A stretch of DNA of 58,737 nucleotides from an uncultured Ruminococcus sp. (GTDB taxonomy: Bacteria > Bacillota > Clostridia > Oscillospirales > Acutalibacteraceae). Under the pieces are notes generated by a model. It was not told the DNA's origin. It did no database searches and worked only from the letters and a program-made list of their open reading frames with translations. This document shows, in pieces, positions 48,276 through 58,466 of this stretch; position 1 is the stretch's first letter, and every line of letters starts with the position of its first letter. Location of the stretch: contig CACYDP010000095.1 in assembly GCA_902773135.1 (NCBI GenBank), forward strand, positions 1 to 58,737, in the 5' to 3' direction. A program made the translations under genes and the position numbers.

Positions 48276-48302
48276 GCCTGACGCTGAACTAAAAAAATAA
48301 TG

Positions 48303-48341
48303 CAGCTCCCGATATATCGGCAAACGGTATATCGGGAGCTG
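48303..48341. terminator. bidirectional terminator between the miniprotein and Gx-transporter genes
   Basis: Perfect 14-bp stem cagctcccgatata/tatatcgggagctg with an 11-nt loop. The minus strand continues into seven T; the plus strand has a weaker TGTGTTT. Confidence 0.9.
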
Positions 48342-48346
48342 TGTGT

Positions 48347-48871
48347 TTATGATATTTTGGTGATATTTTTTGAAGAGAAAAACGAACAGGATAAAATCCG
48401 CTTGACAACAAAGCCATTAAACGCACCGGCAGCAATACCTCCTATGATGAGATACGGCATATAATAAATCAGCATTGGTGTTTTCAGAACAACCATCGCA
48501 GCAGCAAGCTGTCCTATATTATGAAACACTCCTCCGATAATGCTGACGGTGATCATTTTATCCGGTAGGATTTTTTTAGCAATACACATCACTGCAAAAC
48601 TAAGCAACCCGCCCGAAACACTGTAAATCAGCGAAGCGGCATTGCCGAAAAGTATGGCATTCAGCACCAATCGTCCGCATAATATCCCCAACGTATCTCT
48701 GCTTCCGCAATAATAGATCGAAAACAGTATGGCAAGATTGGCAAGCCCTATCTTGATACCCGGAACGACCATTGGCAGAGAAACCATCAACTCTATCCAG
48801 CTTAATATAAAGGCAGCGGTCAGCAGCATTGCCAATGTTGTCAACCGTTTTGCATCAACTTTCTTTTGCAT
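48347..48871 (-). CDS. Gx transporter family membrane protein (HepS component I-like)
   Basis: A 174-residue protein with five or six membrane segments. The pattern LVSLPMVVPGIKIGLANLA (in part, about 30-46) and GGVFHNIGQLAAA (about 113-125) is that of the 'heptaprenyl diphosphate synthase component I'/Gx transporter family. Despite the name, members have no known synthase activity and look like small substrate-binding (S-component-like) transporters. They often sit beside FMN_bind or NusG-like secreted redox proteins. Here it lies 62 bp after such a gene, with GGTGAT before the ATG. The substrate may be a quinone precursor or flavin; this is inference. Confidence 0.8.
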   Translation of the reverse strand: MQKKVDAKRLTTLAMLLTAAFILSWIELMVSLPMVVPGIKIGLANLAILFSIYYCGSRDTLGILCGRLVLNAILFGNAASLIYSVSGGLLSFAVMCIAKKILPDKMITVSIIGGVFHNIGQLAAAMVVLKTPMLIYYMPYLIIGGIAAGAFNGFVVKRILSCSFFSSKNITKIS

Positions 48872-48933
48872 ATTATATCACCGTCATTTCGCAAATATCA
48901 TATCCATCATATTATAAAATATTTTCAGCTTTG

Positions 48934-50499
48934 TCAAATTCTCGCCGAATTTAATGCCAGCTGCACAGCATTCATAATTCCATAGGAACTGTATGTTGCT
49001 TCGGAAACCGCATCAACATTTGCCTGCTGTGTAGCAAGAATCTGATTGATTACTGTATTTTTCGCAGAATTAAAATAAGTCCAGTCTTCTTCATTGGTCT
49101 GTGCCGCTATCGCAATAATTTGATCGTGTTCAACAGTGACCTGAACAGTTATATCACCGTCATATCCGGGTGCGGATGCCGTATAAACTCCATCATTATA
49201 AAGTACGTTCTGAGGAACAGACGGTTCGGGGTCAGGTTCGGGTTCAGGGGTCGGAGCAGGCTGTGGAGCGGTACTCTGCTGTACGGACTGCTGGGCAGGC
49301 TGATTGGTATTCTGTGTTGTCTGTGTATGTCCGGTATCTTGCTGTTCATTGTGAGTATCATCATTAGCAGGATTTTGTTCAGCTGTATTGTTTTGATTTT
49401 CGTCAGCGGGCTGTTCCTGCTGTACAGGTTCTTCCGTTACAGTGACGGTTGTTTCGGGTGTCTGCTGTTCAGCAGCCGGCGAATGCTGCACGGCAGGTAC
49501 AGAAGATACCGATACTTTACTTGTATCTTTGGAAGTCTGAGAAGATTTGCTTGTCTGAGCTGCTTTTTGGCTCGTTTCTCCGGAAGTCTGAGAAGATTCT
49601 TTTTTCGATACTTCACTGCTCAGTCTGCTTTCACTGTCCCCCGCTGTTGACACTTGCGGCTGACTTACCGGTACACTGACCTGTGAAGAAGATACCGACG
49701 GTGACGGCAGGGGCTGAACGCTCATCGCAGGTGCTTTTGACATATTCGGATATGCCATCACGGTGACCGCTGCAGTGCACGCCAATGCTGCCGCTGTTGA
49801 AACGGAATTGAGCAGTATTTTTCCTGCCGGCTTTTTACGGACAAGAATATATTTTCTGATTCTGAACACCGCATAAGCAATAAAAATTAGACTGTAACAA
49901 AGCAGGTCGATATACTTCGATACATTGCCATTGACAGCTTTTGTCCAACCGACCACCATAATATGGATATATACAAGTGCATAAAATCCGTAAGCAAAAC
50001 GCTGAATATTTTTCCACGTTTTTCCTTTGATTTTACGACGCACCGCTTTAATGGAAATAACGGTAAGCGGCGTCATTATGACAACAAGAAGCAGTGCAAC
50101 AATGAATGAAATCAAAAAGTCCGTTTGGTCTGCTCTGCCCTTGAATATCATTTTAAGGTAGGTTATACCGTATCTTAAAATGTGCCCTATTGTCAGTATC
50201 GCCGCCATGATGGAAAGTTCGCCTCTGATCGGCATAAAAGTTTTTATCAGCTTTGAGCCGTTCGGCAGTGCACCTGTCCACATTACAATTGCCCAGACCG
50301 CTGTACCGATAATACAATTGGTAACTAAGGGAGCCACGTACTGTGCCAGATACGAGGGCAAAACCTTGGTATCAATAAAATATCCGCAGGCAGAAAGCAG
50401 TGCCGCTGCAATATAGAATACATGCGGGTGCTTCTTGATATAGTTGGACATCAAAAAGAATGCCGCAGAAAGAACGGCAAAAGATAGGATAAACAACAT
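48934..50499 (-). CDS. ferric-reductase-like membrane protein with C-terminal FMN_bind domain
   Basis: A 521-residue protein. Residues 1-250 hold about eight membrane segments of a ferric-reductase/YedZ-like core. Single histidines His106 (IGHILRYG) and His179 (YIHIMVVG) sit in membrane helices and could bind heme. Residues about 255-430 are a Ser/Thr/Gln/Pro-rich spacer. Residues about 432-521 form an FMN_bind domain (DGVYTASAPGYDGDI ... VDAVSEATYSSYGI), where Thr502 occupies the position that ApbE flavinylates in such domains; the usual Gly (SGAT) is Glu here. Electrons could pass from the membrane to an external FMN. AGGAGAA precedes the ATG. Confidence 0.82.
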   Translation of the reverse strand: MLFILSFAVLSAAFFLMSNYIKKHPHVFYIAAALLSACGYFIDTKVLPSYLAQYVAPLVTNCIIGTAVWAIVMWTGALPNGSKLIKTFMPIRGELSIMAAILTIGHILRYGITYLKMIFKGRADQTDFLISFIVALLLVVIMTPLTVISIKAVRRKIKGKTWKNIQRFAYGFYALVYIHIMVVGWTKAVNGNVSKYIDLLCYSLIFIAYAVFRIRKYILVRKKPAGKILLNSVSTAAALACTAAVTVMAYPNMSKAPAMSVQPLPSPSVSSSQVSVPVSQPQVSTAGDSESRLSSEVSKKESSQTSGETSQKAAQTSKSSQTSKDTSKVSVSSVPAVQHSPAAEQQTPETTVTVTEEPVQQEQPADENQNNTAEQNPANDDTHNEQQDTGHTQTTQNTNQPAQQSVQQSTAPQPAPTPEPEPDPEPSVPQNVLYNDGVYTASAPGYDGDITVQVTVEHDQIIAIAAQTNEEDWTYFNSAKNTVINQILATQQANVDAVSEATYSSYGIMNAVQLALNSARI

Positions 50500-50526
50500 T
50501 TTTTATTCTCCTGTTTACACTTTGCA

Positions 50527-50564
50527 AACAAACAGCTTCCCGAACGATCGGAAAGCTGTTTGTT
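50527..50564 (-). terminator. hairpin between the Tp47-like and FMN_bind genes
   Basis: Perfect 12-bp stem aacaaacagctt/aagctgtttgtt with a 14-nt loop, without a good U-run on the minus strand, and only 28 bp before the next start codon. It may attenuate rather than end the transcript. Confidence 0.55.
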
Positions 50565-50589
50565 GAGTCTGTGCTAAAAATATGATCAA

Positions 50590-52299
50590 TTAAACATTTT
50601 CACTCTTTTTTCTTCTGAACGCAACTGCTATTCCCGCTGATACGGCAGCTACTGCCAAAGCTGCTGCCGCTGCGGTTTCTGATGCACCTGTGGAAGGAAC
50701 GGAAGAATTAGTTGCCGCAGAAGATGTTGTATTGACAGATGTAGTTGTAGTACCTGTTGTTGTACCTTTTGTCGTACTTGTGGTTGATGCTGTGCTGCTC
50801 TGTGAAGAAGCGGTGGAAGTATCCGCACTGCTTTCAACAGAACTTTCTGTGCCTGAAACTGCTGATACTGTACTGTTTTCGATGCTTGATTCAGCCGATG
50901 TTTCCTCAGAAGATTTTGCTGCGGAAGTTTCCGAACTTTCTTCCGGTACCGATGATTCCTCTGTCTTGGAAGATTCTTCAGGTTCGGACGATTCTTCTGC
51001 TGCACCCTTTACAACGGTAAATTCGTATGCATTTTCATAGCCTGTTGCTGTTACGGCAACGCTGTATTCCTTGTCTTCCGCAAAAATTTCTGTATCACCT
51101 GATGCGGCTGTCAGATCAAGATTGCCTTCTTCATCAAAGAATTTGATACTTTTCTTGCCTGATGCGGCATAGGAAGATTCATCAACACTGACGGTAGTGA
51201 TGTTCTTCAGGAACTGCTTTGCCTCTTCTTCGCTGAAACCATCAGCCGCTGTGAGCTTTTCGCCGTCAAATGCTACGGGGATATTCTTGGAGGAAAGCAA
51301 AAATGCAGTATTGACATCGGCATATTTGCCGTTGGCATCAGAAATGGTAAGCGTATAAGAACCCGGCAGTGCCTCTGTGAAATCGATCCTACCCTCAGAT
51401 GCTGTAAAGTTCTCTGCATTGACGGAATAGGTCTTTTCATAATCTTCCGGGAAGCCTTCTGCGGTGAATACCGTGCTGTCTGTGGTATCAGAAGTAATAT
51501 CCACACCTTCTACTGCAACTGTATTTTCAAACTTTACGGGAACATACAGTTTCGTGCTGAGTGAATGATAACCTGTATCGGTAATGTAAACGATTTCATT
51601 GATGGTTTTGCCCATAATGCTTTCATAATCTTCATAATCAAGCGTATTGCCGTGAGGTTCGGTTGTCTTAAAACCGCTTGACCACGCTATTTCATCTCTC
51701 CAGATATTCTGAAGATGACGCATTGCATAGCTGCTGCCGTCTGTTGTGTTGACGATAACACCGTAGATCGTACCGAAATCGGAGGTACCTTCTTTATTAT
51801 TAATCGACTTAACATCGATTACATAGTCACCCCATACCATTTCTGTTGAAATCGTAATTTCTCTTTCATCTTTTTCTTCTGTCACGTCACCGGTGATTTT
51901 AGAAAATACAGCCTTTCCGTCCTCAACCGAAACGGTCTTGTAAGCAGCGGGAACTGTATCAATCTTTGTGAAATTATAATTATTGTCACCAAGGGCTGCC
52001 AGTGTATCGTCTGTCAGTGCAACATAGTATTTGACACCGAGAATTGTACCTGTACCGTCTTCATTTGCAGCACTGTATGTACCGTTGACAAGGTTCATAT
52101 TGTTCCACTTGCTTGTTGTTGCGGAAGATACCGCATCTACCTCGTGGTCTACTTCTTCGGCTGCGAAAAATTCACCGTACGGAATATCCATTGTACCGTA
52201 AATAATATCGTCGGAAGCATTCGCTGTTCCTCCGCATATCATTGCAGCACCTGCTGTTGTTACTCCGAGAATCAGCGACATAACTGCTCTCTTCTTCAT
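50590..52299 (-). CDS. Tp47-like surface protein with Ser/Thr stalk and LPXTG-like tail
   Basis: A 569-residue exported protein with a signal peptide (1-29, cleavage near TANA-SDD). Residues about 34-260 resemble domain A of Treponema Tp47 (IYGTMDIPYGEFF, then VDAVSSATTSKW, and later TDTGYHSLSTKLYVPVK), and about 300-430 contain one or two small beta domains (PGSYTLTISDANGKY). A Ser/Thr/Glu stalk (about 435-530) leads to VPSTG, a hydrophobic helix and RRKK, a sortase-type sorting signal in which V replaces L. V-D-A-V-S-S-A-T (Thr61) matches the FMN attachment motif of FMN_bind proteins, also present in the next gene. Tp47 is known to bind and slowly cleave penicillin; that activity here is unproven. 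Confidence 0.78.
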   Translation of the reverse strand: MKKRAVMSLILGVTTAGAAMICGGTANASDDIIYGTMDIPYGEFFAAEEVDHEVDAVSSATTSKWNNMNLVNGTYSAANEDGTGTILGVKYYVALTDDTLAALGDNNYNFTKIDTVPAAYKTVSVEDGKAVFSKITGDVTEEKDEREITISTEMVWGDYVIDVKSINNKEGTSDFGTIYGVIVNTTDGSSYAMRHLQNIWRDEIAWSSGFKTTEPHGNTLDYEDYESIMGKTINEIVYITDTGYHSLSTKLYVPVKFENTVAVEGVDITSDTTDSTVFTAEGFPEDYEKTYSVNAENFTASEGRIDFTEALPGSYTLTISDANGKYADVNTAFLLSSKNIPVAFDGEKLTAADGFSEEEAKQFLKNITTVSVDESSYAASGKKSIKFFDEEGNLDLTAASGDTEIFAEDKEYSVAVTATGYENAYEFTVVKGAAEESSEPEESSKTEESSVPEESSETSAAKSSEETSAESSIENSTVSAVSGTESSVESSADTSTASSQSSTASTTSTTKGTTTGTTTTSVNTTSSAATNSSVPSTGASETAAAAALAVAAVSAGIAVAFRRKKSENV

Positions 52300-52486
52300 C
52301 TGACATCTCTCCTGTTCTCTATTGATGCTGTATTACAGCAAAAACGATAAAATAATAAGCTAAATGAAATCATATTAATTTATATTAAATACATTTAACT
52401 ATATATCAAGTTTAATATATTTAACTGTTGTTGTCAATACTTAAAATATAAAAATAAAAATTATTATTAATTTTCGATAAAATCAA
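52300..52486 (-). promoter_or_regulatory. AT-rich upstream region of the Tp47-like gene
   Basis: No gene. The minus strand holds TTGACA (about 52435-52440) but no good -10 at 17 bp. A near-palindrome gtttaatatatttaac and two atttaact copies about 30 bp apart lie at 52388-52425 and look operator-like. The start codon is preceded by AGGAG with 9-nt spacing. Confidence 0.35.
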
Positions 52487-57533: not shown

Positions 57534-58466
57534 TTATTTTATATCTTTTTGATAAGCATATTGATCATCCACTCTTTTGAGTTGATAACTGCCATTTAAT
57601 GTAAGTGTATCGCCATCTACGGAATATTCGCCGGTATAATCAGCTGTGCTGCTTTTTGCTGCTACAAAATTAAAAGTAAGTACTCCGTCTTTGGCTTTGT
57701 ATCCTCCGATCATATCGATTTCTTCCGACATTTGTTCAAATACGCCGTCAGAAGTAAAAGTATAGGTATAGGCATAAGCCGAGCTGTCATCTTCGTAAAG
57801 CCATATTCCTGTCAAATCCTTATCTTCCTGAAAATCGTCATACTTTTGTATTTCGGGTTCTATCGAGTAGTTTTCAAAAACCAGTTTGTAATATCTGATA
57901 CCGTCATCGTCCACACTTTCGGCGACCTCATTTTTACTTTTGAACAGATCGCTGTTTTTATTTTCATCGGTCAGTTCATCGGGCGTAAACATCAGACCCG
58001 TTCTGTCCGTCAATATCAGTTTTCGTCCGGTAAAGAGATTGCCCGAAAACTCATAATCAAAATAAACATCAATAAATGTCTGTCCGTTGCTGGCAATAAA
58101 AACGTGAACACGGGGTACCCCATCAACAAAATTATATCTTCCTATGTATGTCCGTCCGCCAAAGTGGTATTTCACAACGTTGTCATCTTCAAACGTCAGA
58201 TTATAGGTATATTGATAATCGTCATTTTCTATATGGAACGTCCAGCTTCCGATGATGCTTGTATCAAAAAAACATTTCCACGCCCCGAAAAACAGGATCG
58301 TTGCCAGAAATACCGAAAATGCAATGCATAAAGGAGCACCTATCCGATCGGTAAATTTTTTTCCGGATTTTTTCCTGTTCTTTGGAGCATTGAGTTGCTG
58401 TCCGGAATCCTGAACCGTTTCATTTTCTTCCGAAATATTTTCGTCTGCACTGATTTCAGATGTCAT
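57534..58466 (-). CDS. membrane-anchored protein with two similar beta-rich units, function unknown
   Basis: A 310-residue protein not recognised as a family member. Residues 1-42 are hydrophilic and acidic then basic, residues 43-66 are one membrane segment (IAFSVFLATILFFGAWKCFF in part), and the rest should be outside. Two beta-rich units resemble each other: one begins IIGSWTFHIENDDYQYTYNL (about 71-90), the other LTGIWLYEDDSSAYAYTYTF (about 218-237). Both have a G-x-W start and an alternating Tyr/Thr pattern, like lipocalin-type or DUF5640-type domains. CGGAGGA precedes the ATG. It ends 17 bp before the mutase gene, so both probably share a transcript. Confidence 0.6.
   Translation of the reverse strand: MTSEISADENISEENETVQDSGQQLNAPKNRKKSGKKFTDRIGAPLCIAFSVFLATILFFGAWKCFFDTSIIGSWTFHIENDDYQYTYNLTFEDDNVVKYHFGGRTYIGRYNFVDGVPRVHVFIASNGQTFIDVYFDYEFSGNLFTGRKLILTDRTGLMFTPDELTDENKNSDLFKSKNEVAESVDDDGIRYYKLVFENYSIEPEIQKYDDFQEDKDLTGIWLYEDDSSAYAYTYTFTSDGVFEQMSEEIDMIGGYKAKDGVLTFNFVAAKSSTADYTGEYSVDGDTLTLNGSYQLKRVDDQYAYQKDIK

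Follow-up and report, generated by a model that had tools for sequence, protein, structure and literature searches.

A predicted Tp47-fold flavin carrier in a candidate cell-surface electron-transfer cassette of an uncultured Ruminococcus

The subject of this analysis is a stretch of 58,737 nucleotides from an uncultured Ruminococcus sp. (GenBank assembly GCA_902773135.1, contig CACYDP010000095.1, positions 1 to 58,737), hereafter called the window, and within it a cassette of three minus-strand open reading frames (ORFs), which in order of transcription encode proteins of 569 amino acids (aa; 50590..52299), 521 aa (48934..50499) and 174 aa (48347..48871), with intergenic gaps of 90 and 62 bases. 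Coordinates refer to the window, and features are on the minus strand unless stated otherwise. The ORFs of the original prediction were recovered at exactly these positions, and its interpretation of them as an electron-transfer cassette is supported. We consider it probable that the cassette performs flavin-based extracellular electron transfer (EET), with a sortase-anchored Tp47-like protein bearing flavin mononucleotide (FMN) as the relay. Such a role would extend the short list of ApbE flavin carriers by a new fold, and it gives the Tp47 family a concrete candidate function.

The Tp47-fold protein and its Thr61 motif

The 569-aa protein, whose signal peptide was judged by eye, is predicted to be an exported, wall-anchored FMN carrier. 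Its N-terminal part gave no Pfam match above cut-off. The modelled region (residues 31-432, 51004..52209), for which AlphaFold 2 (AF2) returned a predicted local distance difference test score (pLDDT) of 95.3 and a predicted template modelling score (pTM) of 0.88 from an 80-sequence alignment, has the Tp47 fold in this model; in the Foldseek comparison with the PDB, rank 1 was Treponema Tp47 (1o75_B; E 6e-9, prob 1.00, TM 0.47), the likeness that had been proposed from the sequence. Because no FMN_bind structure was among the 50 Foldseek matches listed, the fold looks unlike FMN_bind. Neither phmmer with the 569-aa protein nor profile A1, built from 14 units (the protein and its close relatives), found a match among PDB sequences, and the Pfam models PBP-Tp47_a and _c matched neither the protein (E ≤ 1) nor the 14 A1 members (E ≤ 10). 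The relation to Tp47 came via the fold search and a bridge through canonical Tp47 units (profile A3), which finds 1o75 in the PDB at 3e-27 and is matched by the profile of the 80-unit alignment (A2) with E 4e-5 and probability 70, both motifs being aligned. Since the Pfam Tp47 models miss this branch, which we name Tp47N, the 569-aa protein is classed only as a distant relative sharing the Tp47 fold.

Toward the C-terminus the protein has a Shr-like HID domain (residues 360-427, 51019..51222; PF07550, 1.7e-6, above cut-off), a Ser/Thr-rich spacer (residues 436-534, 50698..50994) and an NPXTG/LPXTG-type sorting tail (50596..50697), which scored above cut-off with both NCBIfam NF033846 (24.9 bits, cut-off 23.5) and Gram_pos_anchor PF00746 (23.2 bits), confirming the wall-sorting-like tail originally described. 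The sortase that such a tail calls for is represented in the window's genome by 3 PF04203 matches.

Both exported proteins had been said to carry VDAVSxATxS, and this was read from their translations. The 569-aa protein has VDAVSSATTS, in which the motif D55-A-V-S-S-A-T61 (52117..52137) holds Thr61, the predicted FMN site, and the 521-aa protein has VDAVSEATYS, which holds Thr502. The motif described for ApbE is D-x-x-[S/T]-G-A-[S/T], with Thr favoured over Ser, although Ser is also accepted as the target residue (PMC12052999; papers cited here by PMC number were available as excerpts). The Tp47N motif departs from this pattern at one position, where it has Ser in place of Gly. In NqrC a Lys near the target residue is reported to be essential (PMC4767422).

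Conservation of the motif was examined in 79 related loci, from Clostridia and one Coriobacteriia, which were collected by a genome scan with peptides lying outside the motif. Units were first located solely through their N-terminal start, which gave 113, the window and five canonical Tp47 units included, and every one of these 113 has D-x-x-[S/T]-x-A-[S/T] within 70 residues. The same pattern (D..[ST].A[TS]) occurred in 0.49% of 20,000 random 70-aa windows from neighbouring proteins, a comparison that leaves out locus L103, which is in the 113-unit count. The motif in the Tp47N family is thus not a product of chance.

A second set was chosen with a hidden Markov model (HMM) without regard to the motif and gave 110 strong matches, of which 108 had the N-terminus. 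Left out of the counts were two ORFs that lack an N-terminus (L074 and the second ORF of L117) and L035-L043, which come from the same genomes as other loci. None of the 108 units departs from D55, S59, A60 or K64. Residue 58 is either Ser (55) or Thr (53), and at residue 61 Thr is found 107 times and Ser once, so the conservation of the Thr61 motif among homologues, on which the original prediction depended, is borne out. On the tree of these units residue 58 changes 18 times, always between Ser and Thr, with a median column at 26 changes; T61 changes once, to Ser, and ties with T185 for the fewest changes among the 46 Thr columns, while D55, S59, A60 and K64 do not change. The A2 alignment, the basis of the AF2 model, was picked with a pattern requiring D..[STG].AT, and its lack of change at D55, A60 and T61 is partly circular because the pattern demands these residues; A2 also lacks the L115 unit, the one with Ser at the site. 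Of five more Tp47-type ORFs, taken from other genomes, four have the strict motif and L132 has DAVTSST. A search by codon pattern, run on a single genome, did no better than its reversed control (47 against 81 matches) and is not relied on here.

At the fifth motif position 108 of the 113 units have Ser, and the other 5, which are the canonical Tp47 units, have Arg. Departures from Gly are also found in the FMN_bind domains of the same loci. After matches with a domain E above 1e-6 were dropped, 183 were kept, 169 with the strict motif and 14 without, and in the 169 the Gly position is occupied by G (138), R (12), S (6), N (4), T (4), H (2), E (2) and Q (1). The Arg-for-Gly FMN_bind domains, such as those with DAVSRAT, fall outside the published consensus.

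Gene neighbourhood and fusions in relatives

FMN_bind, ApbE, heme-reductase or NapH genes are present in 66 of the 79 loci, as counted with HMMs built from these same loci. Taken singly, FMN_bind is present in 59, ApbE in 41, heme reductase in 32, NapH in 30 and NusG_II, which we take to be EetA, in 31. Where a flavinylation gene is separate (65 loci), its median distance is 123 bp, with 47 at 300 bp or less; the median drops to 83 bp if fused ORFs are counted as zero. By comparison with these 59 loci, FMN_bind would be expected in about 1.8% of random 24-kb stretches, an estimate from 20 genomes, which cover 20 of the 79 loci. Among the 13 loci lacking a redox neighbour, 8 end no more than 168 bp downstream of the Tp47N gene. 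Two layouts recur, one with Tp47N, heme reductase/FMN_bind, ApbE, NusG_II and Gx, and the other with ApbE, multi-FMN_bind, FMN_bind, NapH, NusG_II, Gx and Tp47N.

Linkage extends to fusion, since 19 ORFs join Tp47N and FMN_bind in one polypeptide according to our own HMMs. A Pfam scan of the 41 ORFs of at least 590 aa (from 76 of at least 400 aa) found FMN_bind in 16, FIVAR in 8, SLH in 6 and HID in 37. The locus L063 has the operon Tp47N(x2)-apbE-NusG_II-EetB, with apbE directly after Tp47N; within its 21 kb no FMN_bind was found, and Tp47N is the only listed ORF with the motif. The same genome has one FMN_bind gene on another contig, so that apbE is no orphan genome-wide.

At the level of genomes, ApbE is found in 47 of 50 Tp47N genomes, which come from 50 of the 79 loci, and in 218 of 293 genomes of the class (74%; Fisher p 0.0016, treating genomes as independent and ignoring kinship). 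The converse search of the class with the family profile matched 7 of 293 genomes, two of them over the C-terminal HID part only, and is too sparse for a test of presence and absence, the five remaining matches including the window's own genome. In 59 related genomes 22 matched, comprising 9 true relatives (one truncated) and 13 that align only from query residue 222 on.

Several observations concern the surroundings of Tp47N. The unit is single in the window, L035 and L036, whereas in L037, L038 and L039, whose gene order is as in the window, one ORF holds two copies in tandem. A flavodoxin HMM matched near Tp47N in 24 of 91 loci scanned (e.g. L036:6812-8157 and L041:9462-10769), and the gene is often accompanied by two small genes in constant order; this flavodoxin is perhaps the cytosolic electron donor. 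A second cassette was seen in the window's genome (G000:C36), in L044 (6639-9939) and in L136 (3937-5415), comprising an FMN_bind lipoprotein, a motif protein of 165-168 aa and a membrane protein of 181-182 aa, and in L044 also a fumarate-reductase-like flavoprotein. Close to its start the 165-168-aa protein carries DAVSSAT in L044, where it has no Pfam match, and DAVSSAS in L136; it may be another class of ApbE substrate.

Proposed electron path and alternative readings

The 521-aa protein is a heme-reductase-like membrane protein with a C-terminal FMN_bind domain, and its neighbours are the same in relatives. Its membrane core (residues 1-235, 49795..50499) is all-helical in the AF2 model (pLDDT 90.8), and the best five Foldseek matches are STEAP1/2/4 chains (prob 0.98-1.00, E 0.03-0.14). 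The heme-type core with single His residues that had been read from the sequence agrees with an alignment of 30 homologues, where H106 is 97% and H179 100% conserved; one heme is suggested because the core has two conserved His. Ferric_reduct falls under its family cut-off (4.1e-5; 24.1 versus 28 bits), and Pfam recognised no nicotinamide adenine dinucleotide (NAD) domain. A flexible tether rich in Ser, Thr, Pro, Gln and Glu follows (residues 258-435, 49195..49728; S/T/P/E/Q/N 69%). Long Ser/Thr-rich spacers had been claimed for both exported proteins, a description that fits the 569-aa protein (Ser+Thr 56%) and is loose for the tether (28%). The FMN_bind domain (48949..49167; PF04205, 8.1e-13 in the genome search and 1.8e-11 by Pfam) contains D496-A-V-S-E-A-T502 (48994..49014), with Glu at the Gly position; from the sequence and its place in the domain, Thr502 is the predicted FMN site, and the D, S and T of this motif are conserved at 90, 87 and 93% in the same 30 homologues.

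The 174-aa protein is a Gx transporter/EetB-family membrane protein (PF07456, 1.2e-36; 126.3 bits, cut-off 30), and Gx genes are present in 34 of the 79 loci, often adjoining apbE. In Listeria, the EetB of this family, implicated there in the export of flavin adenine dinucleotide (FAD) for flavinylation, is reported to be required for flavinylation of PplA and to bind FAD; when eetB was mutated, the authors could detect no difference in extracellular flavins (PMC9973259). The original prediction had the Gx protein supply a cofactor or a quinone precursor; because the protein belongs to the EetB family, FAD is the likely cargo and the quinone precursor is less likely. By homology, the Gx protein likely helps to supply FAD for flavinylation. 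The expected apbE gene was found in the window's genome at another locus (G000:C89, E 3e-91), adjoined by a NusG_II gene; the cassette itself has neither.

From these elements we infer the following path. The heme-binding STEAP/MsrQ-like core would take electrons from the cell interior and deliver them to its own tethered FMN_bind domain, where Thr502 would bear covalent FMN. They would next reach the FMN covalently bound to Thr61 in the separate, sortase-anchored Tp47-fold wall protein and then an acceptor outside the cell. ApbE, encoded beside NusG_II, would attach the FMN, drawing on FAD exported with the aid of the EetB-type Gx protein.

Several results weigh against this path. The fifth motif residue of Tp47N is Ser rather than the canonical Gly, and in one substrate a change of Gly to Ala was reported to leave only about half of the flavinylation (PMC12052999). 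The target residue is itself Ser in the L115 unit, and the distant homologue L132 has DAVTSST. Five loci (L077, L080, L101, L115 and L120) lack a redox neighbour although the locus extends further, and L130 has none within 19 kb. The apbE gene of the window's genome lies outside the cassette, the enrichment of ApbE in Tp47N genomes is modest given the baseline of 74% and the neglect of kinship, and ApbE was not found in 3 of the 50 genomes, for which completeness was not given. The STEAP match of the membrane core, finally, is weak by E-value (0.03).

Among the alternatives, the one that survives best, though we hold it unlikely, accepts FMN on Thr61 and makes the protein a surface flavoenzyme that reduces a specific outside substrate, with no relay. 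K64 is invariant and K121, Y159 and W200 change once each, and these residues could make up an active site; many of the proteins have a single Tp47N unit. Pfam, on the other hand, recognises no catalytic domain in the 569-aa protein or its 14-member alignment, and relatives often have several units in combination with FMN_bind and wall-binding domains, like multi-flavin relays. Somewhat less likely still is that the main task of the cassette is to reduce iron or heme so that it can be taken up, a reading compatible with the proposed relay. STEAP1/2/4 chains are the best, though weak, structural matches of the core, the surface partner has an HID domain, and links of MsrQ-like systems to iron transport are reported (PMC8238504). 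Against this, HID may here be just an Ig-like spacer, and the window neighbours resemble housekeeping genes (pyrH, frr, uppS and dxr, by eye) together with an FtsX-type ATP-binding cassette (ABC) pair (ATPase by eye); no iron or heme uptake genes are among these neighbours, and such transporters were not searched for elsewhere. Improbable, lastly, is an unflavinylated Tp47-like protein that is anchored in the wall and binds or docks the flavinylated reductase, its motif a structural turn: in the AF2 model the motif does follow strand 27-29 directly, at a helical turn, with Thr61 in the loop, the canonical Tp47 branch with Arg at the fifth place retains the motif, Y41, G88, G230 and Y326 are likewise invariant and most long ORFs have the HID domain, but a turn alone has no obvious need for a residue 58 that switches only between Ser and Thr or a residue 61 limited to Thr and Ser, the constrained positions are those read by ApbE, and the linkage and fusion to FMN_bind and the L063 apbE operon without FMN_bind argue against a mere docking partner.

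The relay path stays our preferred reading of the cassette. Around it, a promoter-like site lies upstream (52409..52437; 10/12 consensus match), which is weak since the region has 16 such sites with 10.6 expected, and a terminator-like 20-bp stem lies directly 3' of the cassette (48300..48344; strand unassigned, listed on the plus strand by the scan). The window also encodes a 310-aa protein (57534-58466) with a DUF5640 match barely above cut-off, which is unrelated to the cassette.

Canonical Tp47 and known systems

Treponema Tp47 is currently filed as a penicillin-binding protein, and its structure dates from 2002. The solved chain 1o75 has D-A-V-S-R-A-T at the place aligned with the Tp47N motif, and the canonical Tp47 units examined keep D-x-x-[S/T]-R-A-T. 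Canonical Tp47 (Pfam Tp47_a, _c) and Tp47N are joined in one polypeptide in L086, L087, L091, L092, L106 and L124. PF14889 was found in 2 of 391 class genomes, within about 4 kb of ApbE in both. L127 has ApbE, FMN_bind x4, FMN_bind, NapH and a Tp47 with D-V-V-T-R-A-T, and one ORF of L128, with Tp47N twice plus D-A-V-S-R-A-T, adjoins ApbE, Gx and NusG_II. All proteins of the Tp47 fold might accordingly be electron carriers with covalently attached flavin, an idea that we put forward only tentatively because canonical Tp47 is near ApbE in just two genomes. If it is true, the 47-kDa lipoprotein of the syphilis spirochete would belong, as a flavoprotein, to a redox chain in the periplasm. No title or abstract in the openly licensed literature was found to propose flavin on Tp47, which does not prove absence, and it was not found in the excerpts of PMC10979944, PMC11334425, PMC8238504, PMC12052999, PMC4767422, PMC7512555 and PMC5956850; the main text of PMC8238504 does not contain the word Tp47.

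The survey of flavinylated systems describes multi-flavinylated clusters that contain large proteins lacking annotation and bearing SLH, Rib, FIVAR or LysM domains (eLife 2021, PMC8238504), and Tp47N proteins may be among them. Tp47-fold carriers are easily missed because the usual search motif is S-G-A-[S/T]. Among the ApbE substrates other than FMN_bind, DUF2271, DUF3570, FMN_red and Flavodoxin_4 (PMC8238504, PMC11334425) are a close precedent, since there too a different fold was recognised by conservation of the motif and linkage to apbE. The present case differs from them in the Tp47 fold, in having S-S-A-T instead of S-G-A-[S/T], and in that its flavinylation is a prediction.

The MsrQ-like systems (Meheust et al., eLife 2021, PMC8238504) resemble the cassette in having a PF01794-type membrane protein together with FMN_bind, to which relatives of the cassette add apbE. 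For those systems two sites for heme are described, frequently along with an NAD domain, whereas the 521-aa protein likely has one heme and no Pfam NAD domain, and here FMN_bind is fused to the core and a Tp47 partner is added. With the flavin-based EET of Listeria (PplA, FmnB/ApbE and EetB; PMC9973259) the cassette shares an extracytosolic carrier flavinylated by ApbE, which is predicted here, and a FAD supply with an EetB (PF07456) component. It differs from the Listeria system in the location of apbE at a separate locus, in the likely electron source, a heme membrane protein, and in the surface carrier, which would have the Tp47 fold. Treponema pallidum Tp47 itself (PDB 1o75) is a lipoprotein with Arg in the fifth motif place, and it shares with Tp47N both the fold and the aligned heptad.

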